This document shows positions 1,907-60,422 of a stretch of DNA of 64,000 nucleotides, piece by piece. The stretch's first letter is position 1, and every line of letters starts with the position of its first letter. Source of the DNA: Tridacna crocea (taxonomy: Eukaryota > Mollusca > Bivalvia > Cardiida > Cardiidae); NCBI GenBank assembly GCA_943736015.1, contig OX031072.1, positions 12,241,501-12,305,500 on the forward strand, in the 5' to 3' direction. Position numbers and translations under genes: made by a program. A model generated the notes under the pieces. It saw only the letters and a list, made by a program, of their open reading frames with translations, was not told the origin of the DNA and did no database searches.

Positions 1907-4900
1907 ATGGCTGACAAAAGACGACCCAAACGCCGAACCGATAAGGTATCAGCTCAATATTTGCTCATGTTTGGGATTTATGCGGCAATTAATTTGTGTA
2001 CTTGTTTGATTAAATGTTTTGCAAATTTTTAGCTGTCTATATTCGATACAACTCTTACGGGTGGAGAGTTAGCTCAGGTAATATGTCCCGAATTGTGTGA
2101 AATGTAGTGGGTGGGGTAAAAATGCCTGTCGGCATATTCTCGGCATTTAATGCTGTCGATCTTGACAGGTCAATGTTTAGCCTACAGGTATATCGTTTTT
2201 TATGTTTCTAACTCGTTCATTTGATATTTAGAAAAAGATCAAAAAGACCCATGTGCATCTTAAACAAACTTTCTTTGCAAAATAATCAGTCTTTACTTTC
2301 ATTTTCAGTTGGAAGAAAAATGTACAAAAGAAGAATATGCAGTGGCGAAACATGTCAGATTCAACACACAGGAACACATTGGCCGTTTGGCTGGAATGAC
2401 AGTCAAGTGTTTCACAGGTAAAAGGAAAACCTCTATTACTATACCACTATTAAGTTTCAAGTTTGTTTTCCAAATGATATCTTAAAAATCAACTTTTGAA
2501 ATTTGAAATCGTTGTGGGAAAATGGAAAATGCTGGTTACCAATTCAATGAATAACTAAGACCTTGCATGGAATTTTAATGTCTACTCTTGAAAAATCTCC
2601 ATAAATTTAGCTCTTCTTATTACGGCCCCTTTTAGAAATTTTGCACCCCTTGGGGATTAACTCTTTACCTCATAATCCCAAATTTTAATGACCCAGAAGT
2701 GAACTCCTTTTGAAGACACTGTGGGAAAAGGACAAGATGCTGGTAACCTGCATTTTTTTTTTTTTTTTTTTTGTTTTCCCTCAATGTTTTCTCTTCATTA
2801 TCAAAGACAAATTTCATCATTTGAACCGCATTTGAATTGTTATCTGCAAATGCTTTCAGTTTTATCAAGGGTGAAATTTTGTCATTAGTTAAAAGGTTAA
2901 ATGAAGAATCTTTGGTATTTACTCTAGAGTTAAAAGTAGCATGTATATTTATTAGTTTGATACCAAAGTATTTAATTGGTATCTAATCATATTTTACAGC
3001 ATCAGATGCAGTGAACTGTTTACTTGACTCACAATGGGCTAGGGGTAATGCAGACCCAGACTCTGAGATCATCCTGACTGACAGAAAAAGTTGTGTGAAT
3101 CTCATGAATAGGTATGATACACTCTTTTTAATCTTTCATTTGTTTTTTTGTGTGTCTTTATTTATCTGTTGAGCTCAGTGTACCCCTGACTTGGGAGTTC
3201 ACTGTGATTTTATGTCTGTTCTTACCTGCATGGCAGCCATTCTGTCCCTATTCTGAAAGATATGTGCATTGTTTCCAATGGCTGTATGTGCCAGTCCTTT
3301 CATTGTCACCTTACAGTAGCATCTGAGATTGATAATCTGAACAAAAAAAACCCAAAATAATTTAGAAATTGTTCAAGTGCCATTTTTTTTCTTTCTTAAT
3401 GTAAATTTCTATTGATATTCTTCCAAGGGGATTAAAACTAGGCTTGATATATCTACTGTGCATATTCAAGACTGAGCAGGCTGTTAGGGGTTGGTACTTT
3501 TTTGCAGATGCATTAAGCCTCCTTTTCATAGCACAAGGATCACTTACCTATGACCATTATGCTTGTATAAATATGTAAACCTGCTTTCTAATTACTTCAG
3601 ATTTCTTCAGAAGGGCCTTTTTCACAGAGCTGACAAAGTAGAAAGTAAGAGGGACAAGGAAAAGAAGAAAAAGAAAAAAGAGATAGAAGAAAAAGAGAAG
3701 ATGAAGGAAGAGGAAGAATCAAAGGCAGCAGAAAACACTTCAGAAGTAAGTGTAATCCTTTACCAAACTACAAAATTTTGGACTTTCAAAATTGAAAGCA
3801 TTTGCACATGAAAAAATGAATATGACTCAAGAATTTGAAATTTGTTTTGGTAGGCCAGAAAACAATGTGGGATAAGGCGAAATGGCTGGTTATCTTTTTC
3901 CTACAATGTTTACAAAAGAATCTTTTTCAGGGTCATAGAAACAAGGGATTGTTTAGGAAAGGGTCAAGTCTTTACCAAAGAATCGCAAGTTTAACAAACC
4001 TTAACCCTTTCCCAAACTGCAAATTTTGGACCAGACCAAATTGAAAGCATTTTGCAAGTGACAAATTAACAGTTGCTAAAAAGATGATTTTTCTATATTA
4101 CAGGGTAGAAAACATTGTGGGAAAAAGGAGAAAATGCTGCTTACCAGCATTTTTTCCTTTTTCCCAAAGTGTTTTCTAAAGGCTTCTATTCCTGACCGGC
4201 AAAAACCAGAGATTGTTTGGGAAAGGGTTAAGGAACAAGGCTCTGGAAAATACTCTAAGAAAACCAGAAAAATCATTACTCTTTTTCCCGCACAATTTTT
4301 TCGACTCCTTCAGTGACATATTCTATCACTAAAACCACAATTAAGTCTTTGAAGTAAGATGAGTCCGACGTTTTTATGAACAGGCAAAGAGTTGAACCCT
4401 TCACCAGATGACAAAATTATTTAACTCTTTACCAAATGACAAAATTTTAAACTTGTCCAAATCGAAAGCATTTGCAGATGACAAAATAAAAGTGACTGAA
4501 AATTTGAAATTTGTTTTGTGAAGGGTAGAAAATATTGTGGGAAATGGAGAAAATGTTGGTTACCAGCATTTTCTCCTTTTCCCACAATGTTTTCAAAAGG
4601 CTTCTATCTCAGGGTCGTAAAAACCAGGGATTGTTTGGGAAAGGTTTAAAGTAGAACTTAGTAGAGCATTGTGACTTGCTTAATGTATCACAGACATGTA
4701 TTTACCCCTTTTTCCTAGAGTGCCACTCATATTCATGTAAGCATTTCCTTCTTTTCACAAAACTTTTTCAAAGCAGTTCCCTAAAAATCTACTGCCTTTA
4801 CCGTTAAAAGTCACTTTTTTATGCAGTTTTTACTTAGGCTGTGTGTTAAACTGAACTTGGCATATTGCATACAGTAATGGGTTTTATTTGAGGTTTACTT

Positions 4901-7900
4901 TCATCTGTTGCAGGAAAAAATTACCAACAAAGAAAGACGATTAAAAAAGCAAGCTGAAAAGGAAGCTGAAGAAGCAAAAAAAGAAGAGAAAAAAGTATGA
5001 TCAACAGAATTTGCAAGCCTTTGAAATCTATTTTCAGTTTGTCCATTTGCTTGGTCTAAGACAAGTGGCTACATTATGTGTACAGCTCTAGAAACAAACT
5101 GACCAGATATGACATTCTTGCCTCTCTAGAGTACATGTGCTTTTTTTTTACTCTTTCTGTACTTTAGGCAACTTTGGATGCTTTTATGGACATTGTTGAT
5201 CAAGATCACACTGCACAGAGTATGCAGTCTGATATCTGATCTACACTATCCACTGCTGTATTCTAGTTTATGACTGAGTTGTCTCTCGATCTTGCAGAGG
5301 AACTGTATTTGTAGCCTTTGAGAAAGTACAATTTATTTGTTCAGTAACGAAAAAGCTAATGCAGACAAAATACTATTGCAATAGATAGTGTTCAACTCTT
5401 TACCATAACAAAAGTGTATCCATATGGACAGCTTGTTAACCTATTACCACTCAATCCCTACTTTTGACGCCCCTGAGAAAGAAGCCTTTTGAAAACACTG
5501 TGGGAAAAGGAGAAAATGCTGGTAACCAGCATTTTCTCCTTTTCCCACAGTGTTTTCTACCCTTTCCAGAACAAATTTCTATTTTTCAGTCACCTTTTTT
5601 TCGTCGTCTGCAAATGCTTTCAATTTGGACCAGTCCAAAATTTTCTCGTGTGGTAATGAGTTAAGACTACAAATTTGACTAAAGTGATGGGATTTTACTT
5701 TGATATGCTGGTGATCAGCATTTTATTATTAGTCCCCTACTGGCCAAGTGATTTCTCTGTCCTTCATTTTTCAAGAACTTGTATACAACTGACAATTTTT
5801 TGCATTAGATGAAATAAAAAAAAATCTTTGACACTGATTGTGAATCTTCTCTCCATCATTTTTCAGAAAGAGACAGCAAACAAACAGAAAAAGTACAAAT
5901 TAAATATGAGTGAAGATCAGAGATTTGTTGATGGTAATGCTGTAAGTAGCTATTTTTCTCGTATTATCTAAAACTTTATCAATTATTGGAGCTATGCTCT
6001 GTGAACAGGGGGCTTAACTCTTTACCAAACGATAAATTTTAAGCTGGTCCAAACTGAAAGCATCTGCAGACAACAAAATAAAAGTGACATGAAATATGAA
6101 ATTTGTTTTGTGAAGGGAAGAAAACATTGTTGGAAAAGGAGAAAATGCTGCTTACCAGCATATTCTCCTTTTCCCACAATGTTTTCAGAAGGCTTCTTTC
6201 TCAGGGTCGTTAAAAGTCAGGGTTGTATGGTAAAGGGTTAATGCATCTGCTAGAAGAATCGACCCTTGTCAGGCTGCCCAGGCTGACACATATCAAAACT
6301 TCTTGCTACATGTAGATTTTCTGTATGGCAAAGGACTATTCTGCTTCCATATCCAGTTTGGGAATCCTTATTATGTGATTATGCAGAAATTAAATTTTAG
6401 CAAAAGAACTTCACATATTGAAACTGTCACAAGTGCTAAAAAATAATTATGGAAAAAAGACTAAACATTTCTCAGAATGTTTTTTGTAGCATTTGAATCA
6501 AAGCATTAGAATCAAAGTATTTTTCTTTTATTGAGGTTGTTCTGGGTTGTCTCACTTTTAAGTTTTCCTGTGCACCTTAATTGTGCTGAAATTTCCATTA
6601 CTTTGTACTTTTACAGATATATGTATGGATTTACGACCCAATAAGACCCAAGACATTTTTCATAGGCTTTTTAATGCGTAAGTAATAAGTTTTAAACTTC
6701 TTGTATTGTTTTGTGTTTATAGTTTTGATTAGTTGTGTATCTTCTGTTAGAAGATATTTTTTATGTACCCTCTTCTAAAGTGTTTTGTATTCTTTTATTT
6801 GACAGGAATTTAAAACAGTTATTGTTGTTTGCCTAGACATTAGTTGATTAGGTGAATCCACATGAAGATAAACTTTAAATGGCATTGTATGTTTAAATTG
6901 TGCATATAAATTATTTTCATGCAATACTTTCCTGTCTATCTTAGATTGAAAAATTTTTGCGCTAGGGCTTTGCTGTGCCTTGCCTTATTGTAACCTAAAG
7001 CAACCAGCACTGCCCTCATTGATTGAACCATGGTTCTCAGTATAATTGAATGTGTGATCCTCTTGGAAAAAATGCTTCCATATTTGTATACACATACAGT
7101 GTATCCTTTAGGAGCATTTGTTTATAGAAGTTTCATTTGAACTTTCATCAATGGTCTATAATACACTATATCAAGAATGAAATCTCAATTCTTGTTTAGC
7201 ATGTGATCTAATTGTCATGTATTGTATTTCAAGCTTATGTGCATATCTGTATTTCAGTATTGGGAGCAGCTGGCCTATGTTTATTCCCTCTATGGCCTGA
7301 CTGGATGAGAATAGCTGTGTACTACGCAAGTTTACTTGGAGCGTCTTTTGTGGGTCTTATGCTGTTTCTTATTGTGTGTAAGTAAAATGTAAACTTTTCA
7401 AGCAGAGTAAACATGCATTTAGATTAGTTGATGCCAAATTAGCATGGTAACCCAGGTTGTGAGTTGCGATCCTACTTCAAAATCTTTTCTGTTTTTGATG
7501 ATAGTCATTGCAACAGCATTTATTTTCCGATCACCACATATCATACATTTAATTACAAACTATTTTATGGGGAGCAGCCAGTGGCTTGGAAAGAGTTGTG
7601 TATGTGGTGGTAGTAAAAATAATTTACTTTGTGAAAACGCACTGCTCCTTTCCTCAAAGTGTTTTCTTAAACTACTGGTTGAGGTATAGAAGTCATCTTT
7701 GTTTGGTTCGAAGTCATTTTATAATTATTCTTTACATTTAACGCCCGCCCGGATGGCTCAGTGGTGAGTATGTCGGACTCACGACCTGGTTGTTGTGAGT
7801 TCGGTACCCGGTTGAGGCGAACTTTCTTTCTTGCGTTTTTTTGCCTCTCACCTCTGCTAAAGCATGTGAGAAAAGTATTAGGTGGCTTTGGGAAGAAAGA

Positions 7901-9511
7901 TGTGTTATTACTGGTATGAGAATGCCAGGAAACACATGTGCATCACCGATCACCATGATATGAGCTGTTAAAGTGGCATTAAACCCAAATACAACCAACC
8001 AACCAATTGCATTTAAAGGGCATGAGCTATAAACTTGACCTTTTGCCCTTCAACCTTCAACAGACTATCCTGAGTTTAACCCTTTAACACATAAATCAAG
8101 CTTTTAAGGACCCTGAGAAAGAAGCCTTTTGAAAACATTGTGGGAAAAGAAGAACATGCTCGGAACCAGCAATTTCTCCTTTTCGCTCAATTTATTCTAC
8201 ACTTCCTAAGACAAATTTTCAGTCACTTTTATATTGTTGTCTGCAAATGTTTTCAATTTGAACCAGTCTAAAATTTTGTCGTTTGGTAAAAAGTTAAAGA
8301 CTGTGAGAAATATATCTTTTGAAAACCTCTTGAGAAAAATAAAAAGCTGGTAACCATTATTTTGTTCTTTTCCCATATTTTGAAGAGGCCTCTTCACCAG
8401 GGTCATTATATCCCCGCAAAACAACTGTTTTCTTGGGTATACTGGAATCAACCTCTCTGTCCGTGTGTGTGTCTGTCCGTCCATGTGTCTGTGTACAAAA
8501 GAATAGCAATTGCCTGTTTCTGTTAAAGTGCTGGCGGGGTATTAAGTCACATTTAGTGACAGCTCTAGTTAAAAAGTGGGACTGTTTGTAATAAGTTTAC
8601 TTTGTGCTATTTTACTGGTTGTCTTTGTTATATAATTGCCCCAAGATGCTATTATATGTAATGATATCTGTTACTGTAATTGGTAACAACTTAAATTTAG
8701 CAGATTGGAGGTTCATTTGATGCCTTGTTTATGCATTTTTGAAAAATGTGGAATCTGTAAAGGGTGCTGAGGTTGACCAAGGCCTCCATAAATGGGATTG
8801 CATGGACAAGTTTAGGGAAAAAAAAACATCTTCACAAGACAGCAATATTGAAAGCCTCTGTAGGCGACAAATATGTGACTCATGTAGTGGAATTTGTCAT
8901 TCGAAGAGTGGGAAACAATGTGGGAAAAGGGTCAAACAATTTTACAGTTTTATACTTTGACAATTAACCCTTTAGCTGCTAAACATGAATCTCTGACCAA
9001 TAGCAGAAAGTGTAGATCAAGATCAGACTGCACAGAACATGCATTCTGATCTTGGATCTACACCTTTCAAGAAAATTTTTTTTCTCACTCCAAAAATAAA
9101 TTGAAACAGTATTATTAAGGTTTTTACTGTAGGTTGGAAAGAAAGGTATGTTTTTCCATTTCAGTGCGAGTCATCATATTCTCCATTGTGTGGATGGCAA
9201 CCTTCGGTAAACATCATTTATGGATTTTCCCGAACCTAACCGAGGATGTTGGTATTATAGACTCATTCAGACCTTTATTAAAACATGATGTGTACCCTCC
9301 CCCTGAAGTATATGAGGAACAATTGAAAGAAAAGGAAAGAAAAGAGAAGAAAGAAAAAGAAAAGAAGGAAAAAGATGAAAGCAAAGAAGATAACGAGACT
9401 GAAAATGAAGATAAGAATGAGAATGGATTTGAAATGGTAGAATCTAAAGATGAAAGTGAGGGTGAAGAGCAAGATGACGAGGAACATGACAGTGAAATTG
9501 ACGAAAGTTGA
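1907..9511 (+). CDS. SEC62: Translocation protein SEC62
   Basis: Coding exons: 1907-1945, 2309-2417, 3000-3111, 3601-3745, 4914-4994, 5867-5941, 6617-6677, 7258-7377 and 9165-9511. All junctions are GT-AG and keep frame, giving 362 aa. SEC62 is an ER-membrane partner of SEC61/SEC63 in post-translational protein import. A basic N-terminus is followed by the conserved cytosolic domain (AVNCLLDSQWARG, FLQKGLFHRADKV). A lysine/glutamate-rich linker (about 105-170) leads to YVWIYDP and then two membrane segments (about 200-221 and 226-258). Next come HHLWIFPNLTEDVG and IDSFRPL, both family hallmarks, and a highly acidic tail. F336-E-M-V339 in an acidic context matches the LIR position (FEMI) by which mammalian SEC62 acts in ER-phagy; function here is inferred. 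Introns are loaded with TTAA MITEs. Identity is secure; the short first exon is supported by frame and phase. Confidence 0.95.
2657..2900 (-). mobile_element. TTAA palindromic MITE (piggyBac-like), SEC62 intron
   Basis: TTAACTCTTTACC at the left and AAAAGGTTAA at the right bound a diverged copy. The left half of the hairpin is intact. The right half is disrupted by a long poly-T tract. Confidence 0.7.
3750..3967 (+). mobile_element. TTAA-family MITE abutting the SEC62 exon 4 donor
   Basis: The left end (CCTTTACCAAAC) begins only about 6-8 bases after the GT donor at 3746. The internal left-arm sequence (GAAAGCATTTGCA) and right end (GGAAAGGGTCAA) are recognisable. The hairpin is decayed. Confidence 0.65.
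4001..4231 (+). mobile_element. TTAA palindromic MITE, SEC62 intron 4
   Basis: Bounded by TTAACCCTTTCCCAAAC and GGGAAAGGGTTAA, with a central hairpin around 4100-4170. Confidence 0.85.
4421..4649 (+). mobile_element. TTAA palindromic MITE, SEC62 intron 4
   Basis: Well-preserved copy. TTAACTCTTTACCAAATG opens it and GGAAAGGTTTAA closes it. The central TTACCAGC palindrome is intact. Confidence 0.88.
5436..5664 (-). mobile_element. TTAA palindromic MITE with a perfect 33-bp hairpin, SEC62 intron 5
   Basis: Inverted orientation, bounded by TTAACCTATTACC and GGTAATGAGTTAA. Bases 5491-5557 form a perfect stem of 33 bp with one central base. This copy has CACTGTGGG on one arm and CCCACAGTG on the other, where most copies have CATTGTGGG/CCCACAATG, so both arms changed together. 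Confidence 0.92.
6014..6241 (+). mobile_element. TTAA palindromic MITE, SEC62 intron 6
   Basis: TTAACTCTTTACCAAACG at the left and GGTAAAGGGTTAA at the right, with a hairpin of a few mismatches in the middle. Confidence 0.88.
7742..8007 (+). mobile_element. tRNA-derived SINE, SEC62 intron 8
   Basis: The head carries a Pol III A-box-like GGATGGCTCAGTGGTGAG and a B-box-like GAGTTCGGTACCCGG. The body ends in GTGGCATTAAACCC and a short (AACC)n tail near 7990-8007. This fits a full-length SINE sitting in the SEC62 sense direction. Confidence 0.8.
8076..8297 (-). mobile_element. TTAA palindromic MITE, SEC62 intron 8
   Basis: Bounded by TTAACCCTTTAACAC and GGTAAAAAGTTAA. A second, truncated copy begins at the same right-hand TTAA and runs to about 8410. 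Confidence 0.75.
8400..8570. repeat. Dispersed repeat with a 'GCTGGCGGGGTATTAAGTCACA' edge (copy 1)
   Basis: The block TGGGTATACTGGAATCAACC, CTGTCCGTCC-type runs, and then a CTGGCGGGGTATTAAGTCAC edge recurs in the opposite orientation at 18720-18890. That identifies a dispersed element of at least 170 bp. Its type is unknown. Confidence 0.5.
8964..9070. repeat. Family 2 palindromic repeat, SEC62 intron 8
   Basis: Starts TTAACCCTTTAGCTGC and contains the GTAGATCAAGATCAGACTGC arm with its near-complement. Confidence 0.65.
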
Positions 9512-11681: not shown

Positions 11682-12009
11682 GAGTGCAGTAGCATTTTCT
11701 CTGTTTCCCCCATTTTTTTTTTATTCTTCTTCTTCTACAGCTAAAATCCCTATATTTGAAACATACCACCTTTTTATCTGCAAATGCTTTGAATTTTGAT
11801 TGGGTTAAAGATTTTGTATTCTTCTATAGATTTAAAGGGAATTTAAAAGAATGAAATGGCTAAATTACAGTGCACCAAAGTTGATCAAAGTTGGCGATTC
11901 TATAGTTCCATCAGTCTTTAGAAAACAATTTATGCACCTTAGTATACTATATATAAATCTTCACAGATCAACAAAAAATATTGACAAAGGGAACAATTTT
12001 TCTGTTTTT

Positions 12010-13310: not shown

Positions 13311-14463
13311 ATAAAAAAAAAATGGTATGGTACTCTCAGATTCTGGTGAGCGATCCAGGTCTATCTTTGCCCTCTTGTTCTTTTTCTAAACAACTGATTT
13401 TATCTATCAAATTGCGGGAAAAATTAGCAAAGTTATGATGCAATGAATATTCATGATAGTTGTGGATAGAAGATTCAATTAAGAGTGTGGAGATGTTTGT
13501 TAGAGGATGTTGATAAAGCTTTGTGTTCAAGATGTATTTATTTGTGAATTTTAAGAAAAATAAAAGTATTGCTTGCTATTATCAACAAAATATGTTGATG
13601 TCATTTCTTCCTTCACTTTAGTTGATGTCATTTCTTTCTTCACATGTTGTCTCTAACACATTACCGCCCTCAAACAAATATGCTGCAGATGACTTCCAAT
13701 GCACCCTTTGAAAACACCATTGTAATCTGAAAAAAGTGTAAATATGCAAATACATGTGAAACATTTTAGTAAAAAGAGAATTCTGTTGTTTCAAGCACCT
13801 TCTCCTGTTGCCACAGTGCTTGCAAATGTGGTCAAGTGGAAGACAAACAAGTTTTTATACCCCCCAAGTAGTGGTAGGGTTAAACTGGAATCTCCATGGC
13901 TGTCTGTGTCCATTTGTCTGTCCATAGATACAAATTTGTATGGGGGAATACTTCTAAACATACTGAACTCAAATTTACACACAGGGTTCATACATATATG
14001 TTGTACATGTGCAATTTTCAAAACCTTGCTGTGATTTTTTAAGGAATTATCTCCTCTTAATCTTTTTTCAACTCTTACTTTCATACTAAACCATTCTGCA
14101 TTCTGTAACAAAGACCTGTGTTTGTAACAAGGAGCTGGTGGCGGGTATAATCATGTTTAGCAATAGCTTTAGTCTTTATTTACTATTTCTTTGACAGATG
14201 ACAAAACTGCATTATCATGTTGAAAATATTTGAGCCATACTTTGTGAAAAGGGGGCTTAATGCATCTTCTAAAAATATTGACCCAGGTCAGCCTGTGCAA
14301 TCAGCACAAGCTGATTTGAGCCAAAAGTTTTCACTATTGATCGACTTTGTGTATATCACAGAACCAGTCTATCTCATGATAAGGTTTTTTGTTCAAAATA
14401 ATGGATATAATAGATTCATAATTTTGTGATGGCTTGCTTGGTACCATGGATCAAAGAGATGCA

Positions 14464-14690
14464 TGAACTCTTTACCACACAAACCCCACTTTCTACAACC
14501 CTGAGAAAGAAGCCCATTGAAAACATTGTGAGAAAAGGAGAAAATGCTGGTAACCTTTTCCCACAATTCTTTCTACCCTTCCCAAACCAAATTTCAACTT
14601 TCAGTCGCATTTATTACCGGTATGTCGCCTGCAAATGCTTTCAATTTGGACTAGTCTATATAATAATTTTGTCATTTGGTAAGGAGTTAA
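14464..14690 (-). mobile_element. TTAA palindromic MITE (hairpin truncated)
   Basis: Bounded by GAACTCTTTACCAC and GGTAAGGAGTTAA. The central right arm lost its CAGCATTTTCTCC segment. Confidence 0.75.
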
Positions 14691-16935: not shown

Positions 16936-19900
16936 CTAAGGAGAAGGCATACACTTAAATCTCTCAAAAGCTGCTTTTTCCAAACCCTCTCTCTCAGAAG
17001 GATGTGCTATTTTAATGAGTTCATAGGCTCTTTGTCGAAGATTTTTTCCAAACATGTTGGCTATACCATATTCAGTGACGATGTAGTGAACATGAGCTCT
17101 GGTTGTTACCACTCCAGCACCTGTATACAATAAAACAAGAACTAGCGAATGTATGCAATAAAACAAGAACCAGCGAATGTATGCAATAAAACAAGAACCA
17201 GCGAATGTATGCAATAAAACAAGAACTAGCAACTGTATACAATAAAACAAGAACGAGCAACTGTATACAATAAAAAAAGAACTAGCACCTGTATACAATG
17301 TAAATTTACATCAAAAAAGAGGCTATAATGGATCCTGTTGCCAGAGCATGGCTCACATGTTTTCAATAAAAGTTGAGACAGCATTTTCCTTTAACCCATT
17401 ACCACACAATCCCTACTTTTGACCACCCTGGGAAAGAAGCCTGTAGAAAACATTGAGGGAAAAGGAGAAAATGCTGGTAACCAGCATTTTCTCCTTTTCC
17501 CGCAATGTTTTCTACCCTTCACAAAATTAATTTTGAATTTTCAGTCACTTTTATTTTGTTGTCTGCAAATGCTTTGGATTTGGACAAACCTAAATTATTG
17601 TCGTGTGGTAATGAGTTAACATTTTTCAAGGTCTTTTGCTGCAAATTTGCTTGGAAAATAAATATCAACTCTCAACCAAACAGCAAAATTTTTCTGCCGT
17701 AAAAATTGAAAACATTTGAGGACAACAAACCAACAGTTGCTCAAGAAAAATATTTGTCTTTAAAACAATATAAAACATTGTCTAAGAAGGGGAAAAAACC
17801 CAAAAAATGTTCAAAGGCCTTCTATTTCAAGGTCATCAAAACTTCAAAACTTGGGATTTGTGTGCTTAATGGTAATTTACAGTCCAAAAATACAGTTTAT
17901 ATAGGTTATGAAGATTACAATATAATATGAACAAACCATCTTTCAGTGTAGGAACAATTCTTGATACTCCATTCTCAGTTGTTGATGTGCAAGCAATGAT
18001 TGGTCTACCCTCACCATCCAAACTCTGAGCTGCTCCTCGAATGAAATCTATCTGGCCACCAAAACCTTTCAAAAAAAGAACAAAGTTACTGTGAAATGTT
18101 TTACTTTCTTAAACATACAACAGTTCCATTGCTTTGCTAGATGATTATATGACCTTGACCAAACAAACACACTGGTGTGGGAGGCTTTTGAAAACGGTAT
18201 GGAAAAAAGACAAAATGCTGGTAATTTGCACCTCCTTCTTTCTCAAAATTATTTTGTACTCCCTCTGTAACAAATTTCATCAATTATGCCACATTCAGTT
18301 TGTTGTCTGCAAAATTTTCAAAATTGGACCAGTCTTAAATTCTGTTGTTCTGTAAAGAGTTAACTCTTTACCAAACAATAGTTTTAGACTTATCCAAAAT
18401 GAAAACATTTGCAGACCACAAAATTAACATGACTCAAAATTTGAAGTTGCTCTTGGGAAGGGTGGATAACATTGTTTTTCAGACCAAAGTTCACCTGTGA
18501 TCTTGACCTTTCAGTCATATGATCCAAAAACAACAGGGCACCTCCTTGGGTCATAAGCAACACTTATATATAATTTTAGGGTCCTAGGTCAAACAGCTTT
18601 TGATTTAGAGCACAGAAAAACAGTTTACAGACTGACTGATGGACTGACAGATATGGTGAAACAAGTATACTTGCTCTTTCTCATAGGTTATGGGGCATAA
18701 ATATGACTGAATCCCTGACAAAACAAGGCACGATCTGTCACTGAATGTGACTTAATACCCCCGCCAGCACTTTGACAGAAACAGGCAATTACTAGTATTT
18801 TGTACACAGACGGACAAATGGATGGATACGTGGAAAGACAGGCTCATTCCAGTATACTCCCTGAAAACATTCATTTTGCTGGGTTATAATGATTGTCAGA
18901 AAAAGTGCTTAATATTCAATAAGTACATTTTATTCTACTATATTACATTTCATGTGTCTTTTTTCAGAAATGTTATGGATAAAGAAATGACATCATTTAA
19001 GCTAGGGGGAATTATTTCCAAGTCACAGTGAATATTTTCCTCCTGCCAAAAACCTGGTTAATTGACTTGAGATCACTAGTTTTAAAAGTCGCATTCTTTG
19101 ACAAAATAATCAGACAAATATAACATAATTTATTTCACCAGCTTGTGTGTATATGGGCCTCAAAAGGGAAAGGTTCCCGAAAATAACTTGTGCCGTTAGC
19201 TGATGAAATAAACTCTATTTACTTACCAGAGTACATGTATGTTCCCAATGAATCAGAGCATACTTGCCCTGTGATATCTATCTCTAAACATGTATTGATG
19301 GCAGTGACACGAGGATTTTGACTGATTACAGAAATATTGTTGGTGAAATCACATTCTTGCATACCTATAGAATAAAACAAGAAATATTTGACATATATAA
19401 GAGACTTTAACCCTTTACTAAACAATCCCTGGTTTTAAAGAGCCTTCTGAAAACATGGTGGGAAAAGGAGAAACTGAAACCTTGTGCATATAATAAGCTC
19501 TACTCAAGTAAAATGTCTTTGGACTGGTTAACATTGTTACAAATGGGGAAAATCAAAATGCTGTTTAGCAACATTTTCTTTTACTACATTTGTTTCTGTC
19601 ACCTCCTCCTTCAGTGTGGTAACCACATTGCATGGTATGGTAGATCTTTCTAAGAAATATAAATGTTTTATGTCTTTGTAATACAACATTTTTTAAGGAA
19701 AAGAAAAAGAGTAATTCTACAGGGGTAACTTTCCTAATAAGAACTACACAAAGCATTTTCAATTAATAATTACCTACATGTTTAACTAGAAGAATGCGAA
19801 GGTAAACAGTGACTCAATAGCCCTTCCATCTGCTTGATAAGTTCTCTTAGTACAAAGGAATATTAATCTTCAATGCTTAGTAGACATCGATAAATGTGTC

Positions 19901-22900
19901 TTGTACATCTATGCGAGAAACTATAATTGAGTTAACTCTTTACCAAATGACCTAATTTCAGACTTGTCCAAGTTGGACCCATTGCAGATGACAAAATTGA
20001 TGTGACTCCAAAATTGAAGTTTATTTTGGAAAAGGTAGAAAACATTGTGGGAAAAAGGAAAAAATGCAGGTTACCAGGGTTTTCTCCTTTTCCCATTATG
20101 TTTTCTAAAGGCTTCTTTCTCATGGTCATGAAGACCAGGGATTGTTTGGTAAAGAGATTTCAATCTTTATAAGCTTGACTAAACAAGGAAACTGTATGGA
20201 TGACGAATCAAACATCATATTCTGTGCAGTCTTTCCTTGAACCACAGAACCACCTGCTTTTTGCCTTTGGTGCTAAAACAGATAACCCTTTACCAAAGAA
20301 TCCCTGTTTTTTATGACCCTGAAGACTTTTGAAAACACTGTACAAAAAGGAGAAAATGCTGGTAACCAGCATTTTCTCCTTTTCCCACAATGTTTTCTAC
20401 CCTGCCTGAAACAAATTTCAACTTTCGAAACACATTTGACATCTGCAAGTGCTTTGAATTTGGACCAGTCTGAAATTGTCATTTGGTAAAGGTTTAAAGG
20501 GAGCATTGCTTACACACAAAAGAGTTATCATCCAGGAATGAGTAGAGTTTTTTTGTTCCCATTGCAAAACTAGCCACAATTTTTCCTGTCTGTATAGTTT
20601 TCCTTGCGTTAGTCATGGCTCCTTTCTCAACTAGGTTCACCACTGTATCGCCAATCATCTCAGAATGAAATCCCAGATCTTTGTGATTGTGAAGCTTATG
20701 TAAGACGGCATCTGGTAAATTTCCTATGCCTGTAACAATTAGAGCCATACATAGTTCAAATTATCAATACAATCTCACAAAAGACAGAATCAAATTAATT
20801 TCAGATGTCAAGTAAAATGAAAGCAATATATGACTTAACTCATTACCAAACGAAAATATTTTAGGTTTGTCCAAATCGAAAGCATTTGCAGACGACAAAA
20901 TAAAAGTGACTGAAAATTTAAAACTTGTTTTGCAAAGAGTAGAAAACATTGTGGGAAAAGGAGAAAATGCTGGTTACCAGCATTTTCTCCTTTTCCCACA
21001 ATGTTTTCAAAAGGCTTCTTTCTCAGGGTCGTCAAAAGTAGGGATTGTGTGTTAACGGTTTAAATCATATGATAGATTAAAAGTAAAGAAAAATATACCA
21101 TCTCTAATTTTGAAAAAAAAAATTTCACATTTAATTTGCAGAGCTGGTCTGAATAATATATAACCTACAGGGCTTGACACTAGTAGGTTGCTTGTTTAAA
21201 CCCCAAGCTCAGACTATGCAACCTCCCCCCTCCTCTTTGTCTTGCTCTCTGTCTCTGTCTCTCTCTGAGTAAGGACTGAAATGTTGCAATTTCTAAATTT
21301 CAAGACTGTTTCAATCAGAATCAGAGCAGAACACCAGTAAAGAAGTTCTCCACAGCAACTTTTGGCATCTGCCAGTGTTTCAATCTGTATAAGACTGAAG
21401 TTTTGTTACATTGTAAAAACTCTAACAATTGATATTCTAAATTTGAAAATCAAAATAAACAATTTTTAAGGTTTTGTGTTAAGCACTTGTCACACAAAGC
21501 CATCATAAATTCATTGTAATTTTCGATAAAAAAAGTTGTCTAAAACAGTCACTTGTCACAAAAGGCCATACAATCCCAAGTTTTGATGAACCCGAAAATG
21601 AAGCTTTTGAACACAATGTAGGAAAAGGAGAAAATGCTAGAAACCAACATTTTTCTCCTTTACCCATAATGTTTTCTACTCTATCAGAGACAGAAATCAC
21701 CATTTGATCTTCAAATGCTTTCAATTTGGTCCAGTCCAAAATTTTATCATTTGGTAAAGAGTTCAAAAAAAGATTTGATTGTATTGGTATACCTGTCTGT
21801 ATTGTTGCGCCATCTTCCACTAAATTATCTGATATCAGCCTTGCTATTTCATTGACCTGTGGTGTCCTACTGACAGGTGTTATTTCTGGCAATGGCTCAC
21901 TGTGTTCTATCATACAGTCTATGTTTGACATGTGTATTAACCCATCCCCCAAGGTTCTGGGCATATGTTGATTCACTTGCGCTGAGAAGGAGAAATGTAC
22001 AGTGAAGAATATACTTTCCATACTTTGATTTTTCTTCTACACATTTTCTGCACAATATACATCTTGCCAATTAACTTCGACTGAGAAGAAAAGTTTGAAT
22101 CTTTTGTAGACATAGTATTTCAAGGTCAGACAGCACATAATATGCTGTCTGATTTTGGACCTAAACTGTTTAACATTTGTGGGATATCCTGACCGAAAAT
22201 GACAATGCAATGGCAATATTAAGACCTCTTTGAATACTTGAAAACATCTTTTCCTTAATTCTGTAAATTAAAGGTTAACTTGCCACAAGAAAACATATAA
22301 ATTTGTAAAAATAAAACATTCATTTCTTATCCTTATACAAAACAATTCAGTGCTTCAATGACCGTGAAAAAAAAAAAAGACTTTTGAAAACATTGCGGGG
22401 AAAATAAGAAATGCTGATCAGCACTTTCTCCTTTTCCCACAATGTTTTCAGTACTATTGAAGACAAATTCTATCATTTGAGCCACCTTTAAACTACCAAC
22501 AGCAAACTTTCTCAACCTGGAAAAGTCTTTTGCAGCTTGGCAACGAAATAACCCTTTATCACTGAGCAAAATTTTAGATGTATCCCAATTGAAGGCATCT
22601 GCATACAACAAATTTTGATGTATCTGTATCGATGATTTCTGTCTATGATGTGTAGGAAACATAGTGGAAAACGGAGGAAATGCTGGTAACTAGCATTTTC
22701 TTCTTTTCCCACAATATTTTCTATCCTTCACTAAACAAATTTTAAATTTTCAGTCACTTTTATTTTGTCATCTGCAAATGCTTTCGATTTGGACAAACCT
22801 AAAATTTTGTCATTTGGTAATGTGTTAAGTATAGAAAAGTTGCTTTTTGGAAAATTTGTTCCTCTCATAAATAATACAAAGCTACAGAAGAAATATGTGT

Positions 22901-25900
22901 TATCTTAAAGATCATGTTTTACCTATAATGTATTTTGCATTTTGAACAGCTGCTCTTGTACAGTCCACACTTGTGCCTAGTGAACAAAAGCCATGCTGGT
23001 CTGGTGGGCTCACATGTATCAAAGCAACATCTAAACTGTAACAAATACCAATAGTGCTAATTGTATACGGGAATAGGATAGGCTTCAACATACAAAAAGA
23101 ACATAGTTGTACTCTTCATAAGATTTCATTTACAGTATATAATTAATTAATAAAATAATAATACAATACACCAGGTATCTACCATTTGCTATCAGGCTAG
23201 AATAAATGTCATTTTTCCTGGTTAATTCTGGCAAATTGATTACTAAACCCATTAATACCACAAAATCAAACGTTTTGACAACCTTCAGGTGAAAGCCCTT
23301 TGAAAACATTTGAAAGAAAAAGAAATGAGCACTGCATGCAGTTGCCAATGCTTGGCTGCAGTTGCTCGATTTTATGTCATTAACCCTTTACTCCATAGAT
23401 ACTCATTTCTATGCATTGCTTGTAGGAGCCTTTGGAAAACATTGTTGCAAAAGGTGAAATTGCTCGTGACGAGCAATTTCACCTTTTGTCACAATGTTTT
23501 CTATGCTATCAAAAGGTGCCATATACACATAAGAAATGGCTTCATCCTTGCTATTATTTAGGGTCAATTAGAGATACCATAGAAATGCCTTATGGGGTAA
23601 AGGGTTAACCCATTATCAATGACAATGTTTTAAAATTTAGACTGGTCCAAATTGAAAGCATTTGCAGACGACAAAAGAAAAGTGACTGAAAATTTGAAAT
23701 TTGTTTTGTGAAGGGCAGAAAACATTGTGGGAAAAGGAGAAAATGCTGGTTACCAGCATTTTCTCCTTTTCCAACAATGTTTTCTAAAGGCTTCTTTCTC
23801 AGGGGCGTCAAAAGTAGGGGTTGTGTGGCAATGAGTTATGGAGCATAACCAAACATCATATTCTTTCCAAGCCACTTACTGCTTTCCCACACAACCATTG
23901 CAAAAGCAATGTCTAGGGGTGAGAGGAATGAATCCTGTCATAAAGATTATCACCAATCACCAGAAAGAAACTGGCTGAGCCAGGAATGCAACCAGCAAAC
24001 CAAATCCTGTACAATACCAGCTAAGCTACTAGGGCTCACAAACATAAAGTAAAGAAATAATACTTGTAAATGTTTCTGCGGAATAACAGTGGAATTTCGC
24101 TCAAAAACACTGGCACAGTATCAGCTCTTCCTGCTGCCACTGCCTCTCTGCAGTTGGCACTCATAAACATGGATCTGGATCTGAATATGCCTGCAAAATA
24201 CAAACTCTGATCATGATTTTGTGAATGCACATGTAATATAAAACTGTTTTCTGGTTAGCCATTATCCCTTTACCACAGAATTCACATGTTTTAAGTCATT
24301 ACCAAACAACAATATTTTGAGCTTGTCCAAATCAAAAGCATTTGCAGAGAACAAAGTAAGAGTGACTGAAAATTTGAAATTTGTTATATGAAGAGTAGAA
24401 ACATTGTGGGAAAAGGGAGAAAATGCTGTTTACCAGCATGTTCTACTTTCCAACAATGTGTCCTAAAGGCTTCTTTCCTAGGGTCATCAAAAGTAGGGAT
24501 TGTGTGGTTATGGGTTAAGGAACCTGAAGAAGAGAAAGCTGCAGAAAACATAGTGGGAGAAGGAGTTTTTTCTCCCTTTCCCAGAATCTTTTTAACCCTA
24601 TTAAAGACAAAAGATTTGAGTCACATTTTTCATCTGCACATGCCCAGTCCCTGTATTTCTGCTATGCATTTGTTCACTTGTTTCTTTGTTAGGGACTTTG
24701 TTCGTAAGAATGTTGTTTGATTATGATGCAAGTACAATCTTTTTCACATCAGCAGATCACAGCTTTATGAAAATCAAATTTTGCTACGGATAATTCTCCT
24801 TTTTACATTTTATGTGCCTGTTGGCCCAGCAGCCTGTTTTCTAATCAATAATCTTAATGTTCACTCTTTCTACTAACAAGTATGTCCGTCTACTCTCAAA
24901 ATGTGTTTTTGCTAGATTTAATCGTTTTCCACTATATTCCAACTTTTAACCACTCTTAAAAAGAGAAGCCTTTTGAAAACACTGTGGGAAAAGGAGAAAA
25001 TGCTGGTAACCAGCATTTTCTTCTTTTCTAACAATGTTTTCTATTCTATCAAGGACAAATTTCGTCATTGAGCCACATTTAACTTGTCTTGTGCGAATAC
25101 TTTTAATTAATACTAGTCAAGAATTTACCCTGGTGTAAACAGTTAATCATGTTTAACCCTTAAAGTCTGTTTTATATGCCCTTCAATTCTCAAACTGTGT
25201 TGTATCTAGATTTAATTATGTTTTACCTTCATATTCAGGATTATTATAGTGAGCTGGTCCTACAGTTGGTATATGTATAAGTTCTACATCTTTCAAATTG
25301 TTCTTTCTACCATAATCAGCTAATTTCTGGAGGAGAAAATTTGGCGTTGCTGCACAGCCATGGACAAAAACTCGATGACCTGGAATATAATCGGTGCAAA
25401 AGTATCGATTTATTACTGTACACAAAAATTCCTAATTTCGGAACACAGAAGGGAAAAAGATAAATTGCTGCAATTAGTATTTCTCCAGCTTTCGAAATGG
25501 TAGTGTTGGGCAATCGGTTTAAAATCTCAATCGATTATCGCTTTGTAATCGGAAGACCAAACCAACTAGCTATCGATAGTACAATCGGTTTAGACTCCAT
25601 TTAAATGAGAATGTTTTTTTGCTTAAAATACTGTGACAATACAACACATGTATTGTAAACATGATAGTCTTCATGTATTAAGTTTATAAACATGTTGTAT
25701 TCTGCACTTTTATCAATTGAAATACATTACAATTAAATTTTCTGCTTCAATCAATATCATTCATTTTGTTCCTTATAATTTCCAAACGAGTTAAAAAAGA
25801 ATCAGACATACATTCATACCTAATAGTTCAAACATTTGGAGACGACCCCTCTTCCCCCCCCCCCCCCCCCCCACACACACACTTTATTGTCATTTACTAA

Positions 25901-40272: not shown

Positions 40273-42090
40273 ATAAAAATGGCAGAAAGTTCTCCAAATG
40301 GGTAGAAAATACTGTGGGAAAAGGAGAAATTGCTCGTTATGAGCAATTTCTCCTTTTCCCAAAGTGTTTTCAAAAGACTTGTACTGCAGACACGTAAAAA
40401 CAAGGGCTTGTTTGGGAAAGGGTTAAGATGAAAACCTGTGAAAACCAGTTAATCCAGTACCAGACAATCCCATATTTTAATGACCCTTCAAAAGAAGGCT
40501 TTGGAAAAATTGTGGAAAAAGGAGGAAATGCTGGTAACCAGCATTTTCTCCTTCCCACAATATTTTCTATCATTTTAGAGACCAATTTGAGCAACCTTTT
40601 ATTTGTGTCCATATTTTAATTAATTTTGGTTCAGTCTAAAATTTTGTTGTTTGGTAGAGTTATTTCCCTTGCAAAAACGTTTTTTATTATTTTTATCTAA
40701 AATGATGTTTTAGGTTAACATTATTTTTCTACACGCACTTGTGCAAAGCACATGTTTTAGTATCACAGATAATTTTATCTTTATTTTTACTTAAACTCTT
40801 TACCATTTGATTAATATTAGATGTAAAGGTATCCACCCTTAAAGGCATTGGAGACAAAAAATTAAAAAGTTGCCTACTCTATGAGATTTGTCAATAAAAG
40901 ACTAGAAAACACTGTTGCAAACAGGGGAGAAGCTAGTCATTTTTTTTTCCCGTAGTTATTTCCATGGTTGTAAATACAGATAATTTTTCCTTTCCTTCTG
41001 AAGAATGTCCTTTGAGGAATTTGTAATATTTTATGGTACCAGTAGTTCAAAACTTGGTCTGTGCAGTGTATGTGGATAAAAAAGTTTTGCTCTAAGTTTC
41101 ATTTTATCATCCAGAACTGTACTATTTTGAATTTCTTTCAAGTATTTTCCAGTTACTGTCCTATAATTATTGATCCTTTATCTACTATATCAATTAAATC
41201 TGAACTTTTGATTGATAGCAATATTCTATTATAACAATCTTTTATCCATCAACGCTTTATCAAACATTAATATATTTTAATAACTTGTGGAAAAATACTT
41301 TATAAAATGTTAAGTAAAAAGGAGAAAATGCTGGTAGGCAGTATTTTCTCCTTTTCAACATTTTTTCCTACAATGTCAGAGCCAAATGTCATAACCTCAG
41401 ACACTTTACTTGCAAAGGTTTTCAGTTTAGAGAAATAAATTTTGTCATTTAAGCTTTGAAATAGATACCTTGTCTACTTGCTGGGCTTGTTTTTGTATTC
41501 AATTCCTTTTCATCAAATTTTTTGTCCCTTTAACCAAACAATAAAACTTTAGACTTGTCTGAATTGAAAGCTTTTCAAGACTAAAAAGTTATTGTGGCCC
41601 AGATTACCAGCAAGGCAAGAAAACATTGTGGGGAAGAAAAAGCATGCTGGTTATCAGCATTTTCTCTTTTTGCCACAGTGTTTTCAGAAGCGTTCTTCTT
41701 TAGGGCCTCACAGCATGAATTTGTGCAGTGAAGGTTGAACTTTTAACTGTGCTACTATATTTTTCTCAATTTCTGATTCAAAATATGGAAAGTGATTCCA
41801 TTAAAAGAGCATTTGCTTTTTAGAAGCTATTGCTTCTTCAGGTTCAGTTTCTTTTTCTTAGTGCAATTTTTGCCGTAAAAACAGCCTGTATGATGAATGG
41901 TTTAGGTGAAAAAATCAGCCATATTTGCCATATTTATCGACCCAGTTACACAAAGTTGTCTGTAGATGCAAATTATTTATTGTATTTTAGGGAATAAAAG
42001 TTAAAAACTTATTGCATGCACTTTTCCTTTTTTCTACAATGTAAATTCTTATCAAGCTGTGTATTATGTATTGTGTGGCTTGCAACACGG

Positions 42091-46709: not shown

Positions 46710-46939
46710 TTAACCCATTACCACACAATCCCTACTTTTGATGCCCCTGGAAAAGAAGCCTTATGAAAACATTGTGGGAAAAGGAGAAAATGCTGGTAAT
46801 CAGCATTTTCTCCTTTTCCCACAATGTTTTCTAACCTTTCACAAAACTAATTTCAAATTTTCAGTCACTTTCATTTTGTCACATGCTAAAGCTTTTGATA
46901 TGGACAAGCCTAAAATACTGTCGTTTGGTAATGAGTTAA
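46710..46939 (-). mobile_element. TTAA palindromic MITE
   Basis: TTAACCCATTACCACAC to GGTAATGAGTTAA. The 67-nt hairpin has one changed base at the tip (GGTAATCAGC). Confidence 0.92.
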
Positions 46940-51800: not shown

Positions 51801-54800
51801 GCTGGTTACCACAATGTTTTCAATAGGCTTCTTTCTCGGGGTCGTTAAAAGTCGGAATCATGTGGTAAAGAGTTAAACAATTACCAAACAGCAATGAGTT
51901 TTTGTATGCCTGATGAGAAGGCCTTTGAAAACATTGTGGGAAAAGGAGAAAAAGCATTTTCTTTTCCATTGATGTTTTTACTAATTCAGAAATTAATCTT
52001 ATTAATTTGCTCACATTATACTGTCAGCTAGAAATGTTTTGATTTTGGAATTTTGTTATTTTGGAAAGAGTTTACAGATCTAATCATGGGCTATTTTAGT
52101 CACTATCTTTCTTTCTCTCTCTCTCTCTTTCTCTCTCTCTCTCAAGCCCCAACAGCCCAGACCTGGCTCAGATCTCCAGCTCTGGTAATTTCTATAGAAG
52201 TACTAGTGTTAAGTACTGTACAAGGAAAGTCCAGGAAAGTTGAATGGGTGGATTGGCGGCAGGGATAGAACTAGAATGTTGAAAACAACATTAATTAAAC
52301 AACTTGTTCAGTCAGCATGCCTGCCTGTCCCTCTCTCACTTTCTCTTTCTCTCTGCTTGCTGACCTCTCCATCTTTGTCTGCCCCCCCCCTCCCTTCCTT
52401 TTCTCTTTCTCTCTGTCACATCACATTTTGTCTCTCTTTTGCCCTCAAATTGTTATATCCTTACCTGAATGGCCTTTGTTGTTATGATAATTTGAATCCC
52501 CTGCATCTAAGTATGTTTCCATCTTTGTTTGTCAGGATATGTCAACATATGTGAAGAAAGTCACTTTCAAGCTTCACGAGAGTTATCCAAACGCAAATAG
52601 AGGTGAGAACTACAAGTTATTCAGACACACTATTCATTAACCCTTTACCTTTCACCCCACAAGGTATTTCTATGGTATCTCTAACTTACCCTAAATAACA
52701 GCAAGGAGGAAGCCTTTTCTTATGACACCTATGATATGAAAGCATAGAAACACAAAAGGGAAAGGCCTTTCGGCACTTGTTATATTCGCGTACCTTTCTC
52801 TTTTTCAGCAAATATTTCCCCATAATGAAGCTAATGAAATAAACTCTATGTCCTGAAATCATTTTGCAACAGACAATTTGGAATTTAGCCTTTTTAACTC
52901 TTTACCAAACAATCCATGGTTTTTACCACCCTGAGATAGAAGCCTTTTGAAAATATTATGGGAAAGGGAGAAAATGCTGGTAACCAGCATTTTCTCCTTT
53001 TGCAGTAATGTTTCCTACCTTGCTAGAAACTCAATTTATGAGTGACGTTTATTTTATTTTGTTTATTTTGTCATCTGCAACTGCTTTTGATTTGGAACAG
53101 TCTAAAATTTTGTTGTTTGGTAAAGAGTTTACTATGGATGAGTAGCATGAATTAAGATTAAATGGCTGAATACCATTTTGTGTCCAAAATAGACTCTTAA
53201 CCATACGAGAAAATTTTAGACTGGTCCAAATTGAATGCATTTGCAGACCACAAAATACATATCACTGAAAAATCAAAATTTGATTTGGGAAGGGTAGAAA
53301 ACATTGTGGGAAAGTAGAAAATGCTGGTTACCAGTATTTTCTCTTTTTCCCATAATGTTTTCAAAAGGCTTCTACCTTAGGATCCTCAAAAGTCATCATA
53401 GTGTGGTAAAGGGTTAAAATCAATGAGTCAAGCTCTGAAAAGGGGATCTAGATCAATGCATATGAGGGAAGTGTAGATTCATATCAGCCTGTGTAGTCTT
53501 GGCAGGCTTATATTGTTCAAAATGTTTTGCTGCCAGTCAGTTTAGCGTGGGAATCAGCCAGTTGTTGGAAAAAAAAATTTATGAATCGATGATTGTATTG
53601 TTTGTTGTACAGTCAGGTGGCAATGGCTCAGAGGCAACATGATTCACCACAGCTATGAACAAGTTTTCAAGTCCTCTGCCACCTGTCCGCACAACAAATT
53701 TAACATTCTGCAAAATTTACCACTTCAACCTTTGTGAAGAAAATTTTACCTGTTTTTTTTTGGTTTATAAAGTTGAGTATGCTGACAAAGTAGAAGCCTC
53801 AGTTCAATGACAACTGACATCACTTGGAACTGATGTCACTGAAATCTTGTTAACATGTGCTAAAACGTGTAGCTTGGCATGTAATCTTGATCTTAATCTT
53901 GATCGATGCTGCCATTTTGGATGTTGTGTTGGTAGTGTAGTCATGTATACAGGCTTCTTGTAAGGGAAACTGTTTCTATGCTAGTTTTGCCAGTGAACAT
54001 GATATATATGCTCAGATCATAATATTATCCGATAAGATAACGAGAAATTTCTTTGCAGTATAATACGATAAATTGTTCAGTAAGATGTAAGATTTAGCTT
54101 CCTATTGTTAGGTCATGGATCATATATTTTTCCTCATTTCAGTTGTAACTAAACCTCCATATGAAGTTACAGAAACTGGGTGGGGAGAGTTTGAAGTCAT
54201 TATTAAGATTTACTTCAATGATCCACATGAGAGACCAGTATGTTAAGATTTTATTCTTATTATCACTTTTTCTTTCACTCATTATCATACAATTTCTACA
54301 CTTGTCCAACTTAAAAACATCTGCAGTGGACAAACTATTTGCAGCGCATGGGATTTGTAATGTCAGAATACTTGAGTAATTTTTTATCGAACTTGTCTGT
54401 GAAGTGATGGAAAAGATTGTGGAAGAGGAGAAAATGCTGGTTACCACACTGTTTTCAATAGTCTCTGTCAAGGTCATTAAAACCACTGTTTGGTAAAGGG
54501 TTAACTAGTATTTACCACAGGAACAGTTATGTCAGGGTCGGGAGACATATTTTTTCCCCATGCGTCCGTCTGTCTGTCCATCCGTCCGTCCGTCACAAGT
54601 CGTGTCCGCTCTATAACTCCAAAACTTGTAAGATGATTTGCTAAAACTTCACTGATTATGTAAAGCACTATGAGATGAAGTGTCATGAACAAGAACTATA
54701 ACTTTTGCCTGTATATTTTTAGAGTCATTTCCCTTTGATTATTTTCCTTACTCATTTTACATATTTCATGTCCGCTTTATAGCTGGAAAACTGTTTGAAA

Positions 54801-58547: not shown

Positions 58548-58660
58548 TGATGGGTAACATTTGCAAATGCTGTTAAGTTGGATATTAAGCATAAAACTTT
58601 GTCTTTTAGAAAAGAGGAAAAAAGGGTCTGCAATGTGATGAAGTTATTGTATTGAGTTAG

Positions 58661-58894
58661 TTAACCCTTATCCTAAGAATCCCTGGTTTTTACAACTCTG
58701 AGACACATGCCATTGCCATCTGAAAACATTGTTGGAAAAGGAGAAAATGCTTGTAACCAGCATTTTCTCCTTTTCCCACAAAGTTTTCTACCCTGCTGGA
58801 AACAAATTTCAATTTTTGAGTTGGGTTTTGTTGTTGTCAGCAAGAGCTTTCAATTTGGACCAGTCTAAAATTTTGTTGTTTTGTAAAGAGTTAA
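58661..58894 (-). mobile_element. TTAA palindromic MITE
   Basis: TTAACCCTTATCC to TTTGTAAAGAGTTAA, with a hairpin of only a few mismatches. Confidence 0.87.
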
Positions 58895-59995: not shown

Positions 59996-60225
59996 ATGTT
60001 AAATGACCTCTTTATTTCACATGTTTTGACTTTAATGGAAATGAAAAATATTGTTCCATTTGAGTAAAAAAAATAAAAAATATTTGCAACAAACCTGCTA
60101 TTTACAAAGGACCGACTACTACACTCTTGGATTTAACCAGAATGCCACTTTCTTCCTGGACAAATACTCTGCAGTTGATGATGATGATACTGATGATGAT
60201 AGCTGTGCTTGAGGGATTTAGATAC

Positions 60226-60422
60226 CTCTTTACCACACAATCCTGAATTTTAACGACCCATGAGGAAGCCTTTTGAAAACATTAAGGGAAAAGGAGAAAA
60301 TGCTTTTCCCTTAATGTTTTCTTACCTAAGACAAATGCCGTTACTTGAGACACATCTGAATTGTCGTCTGCAAATGTTTTCAATTTGGACATGTCTACAT
60401 TTTTATAGTGTAGTAAGGATAA
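60226..60422 (-). mobile_element. TTAA-family MITE with short but perfect hairpin
   Basis: The hairpin at 60275-60321 lost its tip but keeps 19-bp perfect arms, with ATTAAGGG/CCCTTAAT where the family has ATTGTGGG/CCCACAAT, so both arms carry the change. Confidence 0.78.

Follow-up and report, generated by a model that had tools for sequence, protein, structure and literature searches.

A clan of piggyBac-superfamily miniature elements in the bivalve Tridacna crocea, with a long hairpin as a proposed cis-acting module

The window analysed here is a 64-kb stretch (64,000 nucleotides) of the Tridacna crocea genome, which comprises 1,048,827,098 bases in 31 contigs; the window belongs to contig C17. 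Five exon stretches were set in it from Pfam matches (Sec62, two of ALG3, the C-terminus of acetyl-CoA hydrolase, and ankyrin/SOCS-box), and an ankyrin-repeat protein with a SOCS box lies at 44379-45524. The window is also filled with a swarm of miniature inverted-repeat transposable elements (MITEs) about 230 bp long and built around a 67-nt palindrome, and these elements are the subject of this report. None of the 94 copies in the window touches any of the five exon stretches. The broader question behind the finding is why certain MITEs become enormously numerous.

The swarm in the window and in the genome

A profile of 229 positions, derived from 17 window copies, recovers 94 non-overlapping copies, which together occupy 26.3% of the bases in the window, or about a quarter. 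Run on reversed and on shuffled sequence, both of the window and of four 10-kb samples from elsewhere in the genome, the profile has no matches. Near-complete copies, which span at least profile positions 15 to 215, number 45 of the 94; by a different measure of length (at least 200 aligned positions) there are 39, and 13 of these have TTAA at both profile ends. An earlier note, made from the letters of the window without database searches, had described a swarm on both strands, and the copies are in fact evenly divided (47 plus and 47 minus). Its figure of 50-60 copies was, however, too low, and its range of 2657..60422 was too narrow, with further copies at 264-410 and up to 62232. Nor does the swarm consist of one element, as had been thought: 23380-23608 and 40291-40426 represent families with other spacers, here called V2 and V3, beside the main family, V1.

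The four samples contain 0, 18, 6 and 5 copies, amounting to 0, 31, 9.5 and 9.1% of their bases; the density is therefore uneven, and the window is denser than three of the four. The 13-base motif TTAACCCTTTACC has 66,634 forward and 66,849 reverse occurrences in the genome, or 133,483 altogether, as against 48 (28 + 20) when it is read backwards as a control. There are nine exact motifs in the window and two in the samples. Scaling 123 copies per 11 exact motifs by the genome count of the motif gives about 1.5 million fragments (Poisson range 0.8 to 3.0 million) and a genome share of 25% (Poisson range 14 to 50%), an extrapolation that is to be read with the caveat that the motif, or part of it, also occurs in other families. 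The share measured directly in the 104 kb of window and samples is 21%. If the extrapolation holds, the genome share is very large for a single clan of DNA elements.

The consensus consists, in order, of TTAACCC(T/A)TTACC, a left spacer reaching to position 55, the palindrome centred on position 89, a right spacer, and GGTAA(A/T)GAGTTAA. The palindromes at 5491-5557 and 20942-21008, which the earlier note had singled out, are exact, each with 67 nt, 33-bp arms and a single unpaired central base. The element has the traits of a MITE in being short (~230 bp), in having terminal inverted repeats and in its high copy number (94 in 64 kb), and from its length it likely lacks coding capacity. With 15 of the 94 window copies set aside as having fewer than 100 aligned bases, the other 79 have a median Kimura distance to the majority sequence of 0.25 and a minimum of 0.08. 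The loci numbered with L below are stretches of the same genome that were fetched for comparison with the window. A young group can be recognised among 86 near full-length copies from the window and these loci (including a few near-duplicate loci): 16 of them differ by at most 13% from the copy in L031.

Target site, ends and superfamily

The target site was approached through empty sites. Among 95 near full-length hits in the window and the fetched loci, 39 were suitable, with TTAA close to either end and sufficient flank, and the joined flanks of these 39 were searched against the window and the loci. Many rows of the search are spurious matches of element to element, but among the matches listed at least three filled sites have insert-free relatives with a single TTAA. 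The insertion at L031 844-1070 is empty, with one TTAA, in eight copies of a piggyBac transposon (L013-L019, L033); in a ninth relative, L023, the site is altered. The insertion at 6014-6241 of the window is empty at window 14224-14295 and at L010 2715-2782, each with a single TTAA, and that at L004 1501-1730 is empty with a single TTAA at L039 1499-1647, while two of the five window relatives of the L004 site carry a one-base difference inside the TTAA. A fourth site among the matches listed, L033 3350-3578, speaks against a strict TTAA target, as its relatives read TTTA. The TTAA target proposed earlier is thus borne out at three or more loci. Because eight paralogs are empty, the element in L031 is most simply an insertion; an identity of 96 to 98% between its flanks and those of the empty copies shows the insertion to be recent. 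The L031 element differs by 4.8% from the window copy at 5436-5664.

The ends were counted in the 86 near full-length copies, limited to those with TTAA at the end examined. After TTAA the left end reads CCC in 24 copies and CTC in six, and the right end, in reverse complement, reads CTC in 21 and CCC in 15. The majority form of the right end is thus GGTAA(A/T)GAG-TTAA rather than GGTAAAGGG-TTAA, as the earlier note had given it. Of the 22 outermost positions, with TTAA included in the count, 16 agree between the left and right consensus ends, in keeping with the terminal inverted repeats of 12-19 bp given for piggyBac elements (PMC2872659). That source also gives a piggyBac terminal motif, CC(C/T)T; here the left end is mostly CCC, and the majority right end is one base off.

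The swarm very probably belongs to the piggyBac superfamily, as the earlier note had supposed: filled and empty paralogs show the TTAA, the ends are of CCC or CTC type, and piggyBac transposons with TTAACCC ends reside in the same genome. The Kolobok superfamily also duplicates TTAA, so that the target site would suit a Kolobok MITE as well. Kolobok ends, however, are RR (AG in ten full-length Xenopus elements and AGGRR in T2-MITEs, in the accessible part of PMC6004289), whereas the ends here are mostly CCC or CTC; this candidate was rejected on its ends and is highly improbable.

The genome has 118 matches to the piggyBac transposase domain (PF13843), and the loci of the best 30 were compared. 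Ends were sought by three starts, TTAACC, TTAACA and TTAATC, so that transposon ends of any other kind would be missed. An inverted pair of ends was recognised in 13 of the 30 loci. All start with TTAACCC and they form five types: TTAACCCTTTATATAC, TTAACCCT[T/A]GTCATGC, TTAACCCTTTCAG, TTAACCCATTTATGCCT and TTAACCCTCTAGA. The ends of the MITEs are not those of any of these 13 transposons, and an autonomous partner ending in CCCTTTACC, as envisaged in the earlier note, did not appear among the best 30 of the 118 matches. The AB family of piggyBac transposons (2,765 bp, ends TTAACCCTTTATATAC, near-identical copies) has the same first 11 bases as the V1 left end; the family is young, and beyond those 11 bases nothing connects it with the MITE.

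Two side observations were made on the transposase loci. A 2,765-bp piggyBac transposon (L014-L019, L023 and relatives) has 16-bp ends, copies that are 98-99.9% identical and open frames of 624 amino acids in four copies, and was perhaps recently active. The stretches in L025-L029, L034 and L037 are 96-99.9% alike over 3-4 kb and contain a piggyBac-type frame (492 amino acids in five of the seven). No transposon ends were recognised in them, and they could be a duplicated host gene of transposase origin.

The palindrome within and between families

Within the V1 swarm the palindrome and the ends have changed about half as much as the spacers. Divergence from the majority sequence in 209 copies is 0.13 per arm and 0.14 per end, compared with 0.26 in the left spacer and 0.25 in the right. 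In pairwise comparisons of 75 non-redundant full-length copies, the ratio of hairpin to spacer divergence is 0.36 to 0.55 in four divergence bins and 0.38 to 0.75 when eight bins are used. Decay of CpG sites as the cause of spacer divergence was considered and rejected, as the ratio persists at 0.40-0.56 without CpG columns. Pairing is maintained as well as sequence: in 132 copies, there are 88 compensated pair cells where the make-up of the columns predicts 35, and both members of a mirror pair have changed in 142 cases against 78 expected (1.8-fold, 32 pairs), while eight shifted controls on the middle 22 pairs give 1.0 to 1.5 times expectation.

The palindrome is also shared between families. 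V2 is represented by window 23380-23608 and by copies in L005, L007, L021 and L040. When the V1 copies at 5436 and 17391 are each compared with V2, the hairpin scores 41 against a shuffled mean of 7, and none of 500 shuffles equals it in either case. The right spacer without its outer 20 bases is matched as well by 265 and 446 of 500 shuffles, and on such sequence comparison the right spacer of V2 passes as unrelated to that of V1, with the left spacer marginal. The V1 and V2 hairpin consensuses differ at five of 32 pairs, four of them compensated and one changed on one side (G-C to C-G twice, A-T to T-A twice, G-C to G-T once). Between V1 and V3 four pairs differ (two compensated, one one-sided, and one two-sided but not Watson-Crick), and between V2 and V3 six (three compensated, three one-sided). 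More diverged hairpins in L022, with six and three compensated pairs, and in L038, with five, likewise suggest that pairing is kept between families.

Changes in individual copies were followed on a tree of 84 copies of near full length, for which the hairpin itself was left out of the alignment. The 358 one-sided changes on its terminal branches include 319 that break a pair and 22 that restore a pair; of the 68 on internal branches, 54 break and 13 restore. Arm-to-arm correction in dead copies is thus not clearly visible in this tree. Dead copies therefore decay with no clear repair of their arms, and it is in the source lineages that the pairing must be renewed.

We consider it probable that these families form a clan of non-autonomous piggyBac-superfamily MITEs in which the hairpin is a cis-acting module. 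The module is suggested because the hairpin is kept, with its pairing, across families whose spacers largely do not align. According to this proposal, MITEs of about 230 bp would be moved by a transposase supplied in trans, with excision from and insertion at TTAA and with ends starting TTAAC(C/T)C, and the hairpin would be the part that each successful family must keep. It would most likely act at the level of DNA while the element is mobilised or amplified, either by offering the transposase or an accessory protein a long site with two-fold symmetry, or by forming a strand hairpin in replication or repair. That the hairpin has a selected cis role in spreading is a serious possibility, somewhat short of an even chance. 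A stronger version is put forward tentatively: that selection in the clan acts on a long DNA hairpin as its unit, with nearly all other internal sequence replaced, the ends drifting and pairing kept by compensation, and that the hairpin drives mobilisation or amplification, to about a million copies and a quarter of the genome. An internal structure kept across families within one genome makes an amplification role directly testable.

Several observations weigh against this proposal. The ratio of hairpin to spacer divergence climbs to 0.46-0.74 when CpG columns and highly variable columns are both left out, and the youngest pairs already differ by 0.043 in the hairpin and 0.120 in the spacers. 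Selection on source copies alone is insufficient to explain a low ratio in the youngest bin, where uniform neutral decay is expected, and part of the effect may therefore lie in mutation or alignment. The 132 copies behind the compensation counts include a few near-duplicate loci, and the V2 consensus comes from four copies (the gapped L005 copy excluded) and that of V3, which pairs at 30 of 32 positions, from three. The V2 left spacers are not cleanly distinct from V1: without the outer 20 bases, 19 and 195 of 500 shuffles match as well, the left spacers of four V2 copies are 41-51% alike to the V1 majority, and AGCCTTT adjoins the hairpin in both families. Finally, the six autonomous piggyBac elements compared match the V1 left end over the first 11 bases at most, and the palindromes in piggyBac ends are, at 19 bp, far shorter than the central 67-nt palindrome here (PMC11707139, as excerpted).

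It is also conceivable, if rather unlikely, that the hairpin is a passenger without function, an inverted repeat captured or formed once and then re-symmetrised in source copies by template switching or hairpin-ended repair. A self-correcting palindrome would give two-sided changes such as those from V1 to V2 without selection, and a slower net change in a palindrome would fit the low arm divergence of young pairs. The 13 restoring changes among the 68 on internal branches, and a within-copy arm mismatch (0.157) slightly below twice the consensus divergence (0.188), point the same way. However, the terminal branches, where 319 of 358 one-sided changes break a pair, give no visible sign of correction. 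Two-sided branch-pairs number 33, of which 16 are complementary, within reach of the 20 to 33 in shifted controls, a result that tells against selection for compensation as much as against correction. Correction alone, moreover, would not make the arms more conserved than the spacers. Because the arms are conserved both in sequence and in pairing, a role in mobilisation or amplification is narrowly preferred to re-symmetrisation.

The earlier note had suggested that intronic copies would give pre-mRNAs a hairpin close to a Dicer or Drosha substrate, and in such a scenario Dicer- or Drosha-like enzymes would cut the transcribed hairpin into small RNAs by which the element is either silenced or protected. 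In principle, a perfect stem of 31-33 bp makes a good Dicer substrate. One copy (window 5436-5668) folds as RNA at -83.3 kcal/mol (z -10.1), and the single G.T pair of the V2 consensus, one datum, would also be compatible with RNA. Mispairs, however, show no strand preference, with 199 cells wobble-compatible on one strand (G.T-type) and 208 on the other (A.C-type), and an even split of this kind gives no pointer to action at the RNA level. The balanced orientation of the copies (47 against 47) likewise speaks against it, and an Rfam scan of the window returned no family at threshold; when one copy was scanned loosely, up to E 5, there were 40 matches, microRNA families first, all below thresholds. 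The Dicer/Drosha suggestion is therefore unsupported, and we judge an RNA role improbable.

To return to the proposed DNA-level module, its source might be sought in L038, where a piggyBac locus, with inverted ends of 13 bp at positions 360 and 4020, has a frame of 496 amino acids at 1498-2988 on the minus strand and, between the ends, a diverged hairpin at 980-1059 that we call V4. The hairpin-bearing stretch is partly repeated in inverted form beyond the frame, about 80% alike. If the stretch belongs to the element, the module rides on an autonomous transposon; two nested copies of another repeat would account for the arrangement equally well. The ends of L038 are unlike those of the MITEs, its right hairpin copy is truncated, and no second copy occurs among the compared loci. 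We accordingly think it doubtful that L038 stands for the lineage that founded the clan.

Mapped copies, other repeats and known relatives

Table 1. Positions of MITE copies, palindromes and an empty site in the window
Positions	Strand	Feature	Remarks
5436..5664	+	V1 element, young group	left TTAACCTATTACC, right GGTAATGAGTTAA
5491..5557	+	67-nt palindrome	33-bp arms, one central base
20835..21063	-	V1 element, young group	
20942..21008	-	67-nt palindrome	33-bp arms, one central base
4421..4649	-	V1 element, young group	full length
17391..17619	+	V1 element, young group	full length
23605..23838	-	V1 element, young group	near full length; TTAA 23605-23608 common with adjoining V2 element
23380..23608	+	V2 element	TTAACCCTTTACTCCATAG...TATGGGGTAAAGGGTTAA; hairpin 23435-23501 with compensated changes
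40291..40426	-	V3 element (left part and hairpin)	TTAACCCTTTCCCAAACAAG...; hairpin 40305-40371
6014..6241	-	V1 element with empty-site paralogs	paralogs: window 14224-14295, L010 2715-2782
14224..14295	.	Empty-site paralog of 6014-6241 insertion	one TTAA within GGGGGCTTAATGCATC
4001..4231	-	V1 element	full length
8076..8297	+	V1 element	full length
14466..14690	+	V1 element	near full length, part of hairpin deleted
19932..20156	-	V1 element	near full length
24291..24518	-	V1 element	full length
36804..37026	+	V1 element	full length, both ends TTAA
46004..46227	-	V1 element	near full length
46710..46939	+	V1 element	full length
53193..53417	-	V1 element	near full length
52894..53129	+	V1 element	near full length
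58661..58894	+	V1 element	full length
2657..2900	+	V1 element	full length, diverged

Other repeats accompany the copies of Table 1. Two adjoining long inverted repeats lie at 49638-49724 and 49749-49915, with arms of up to 80 bp and repeated flanks, and have a shorter relative at 50474-50536. An inverted repeat with 66-bp arms at 33678-33819 has relatives at 34178-34324 and 53624-53700, and a short palindromic repeat at 42215-42290 has relatives in L040, L013 and L023. A dispersed repeat that starts with AGCTCACCT or similar, and which we take to be common in bivalves, is present at 12005-12334, 60935-61122, 62461-62657 and 63545-63721; a related copy hosts one MITE insertion in L004. A literature search with four strings from a dispersed window repeat found no papers.

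Searches for described relatives with TTAACCCTTTACC and two parts of it gave no such element by title among the matches listed, and a scan of IMG/VR with a 29-base hairpin core gave no match, although records of this genome may be outside that scan. A 2023 survey of bivalve transposons reports that MITEs are a considerable part of the genomes, with no further classification in the portion available (PMC10294476). In the literature on piggyBac MITEs with palindromes or hairpins, on their abundance and on molluscs, two precedents came to light, and there may be further ones.

One is a repeat of the hemoglobin genes of the clam Lucina pectinata, also a bivalve, found in introns and promoters, which is 210 bp long with imperfect terminal inverted repeats of 30 bp and a central 77-bp palindrome at 96%; the accessible text identifies no target-site duplication and assigns no superfamily (PMC4732748). 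It follows the same plan as the element described here, a likeness of description rather than of letters. The T2-MITEs of Xenopus, which belong to Kolobok, resemble the present elements in their TTAA and as the predominant MITE of their host but differ in having AGGRR rather than CCC ends (PMC6004289, in part). With respect to proteins that might recognise such a structure, those of piggyBac and piggyBat attach to palindromes in the transposon ends, the contact being made by dimers of the transposase's cysteine-rich domain; these palindromes are 19 bp long in piggyBac, imperfect in piggyBat and near the ends in both, whereas the palindrome here is central (PMC11707139).

The other precedent, and the nearest described kind in the sources as we have them, is that of the CMITEs of Acropora corals, which are related to piggyBac, target TTAA and in most families have CCCTTT ends (PMC2872659, here and below from its available part). 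One CMITE family was matched to a piggyBac element by its ends. CMITEs are about 100 bp long with an estimated 1,600 or so copies in A. millepora, compared with about 230 bp and, by extrapolation, on the order of a million fragments here. Their 75-bp internal region is not called a long palindrome in the portion consulted, and its 60-bp consensus is, as judged by eye, unlike our hairpin. The two groups are nevertheless alike in their TTAA target, in their relation to piggyBac and in an internal region that is conserved between families: in CMITEs this region is more conserved across families than the ends, and the authors propose for it a role in transposition.

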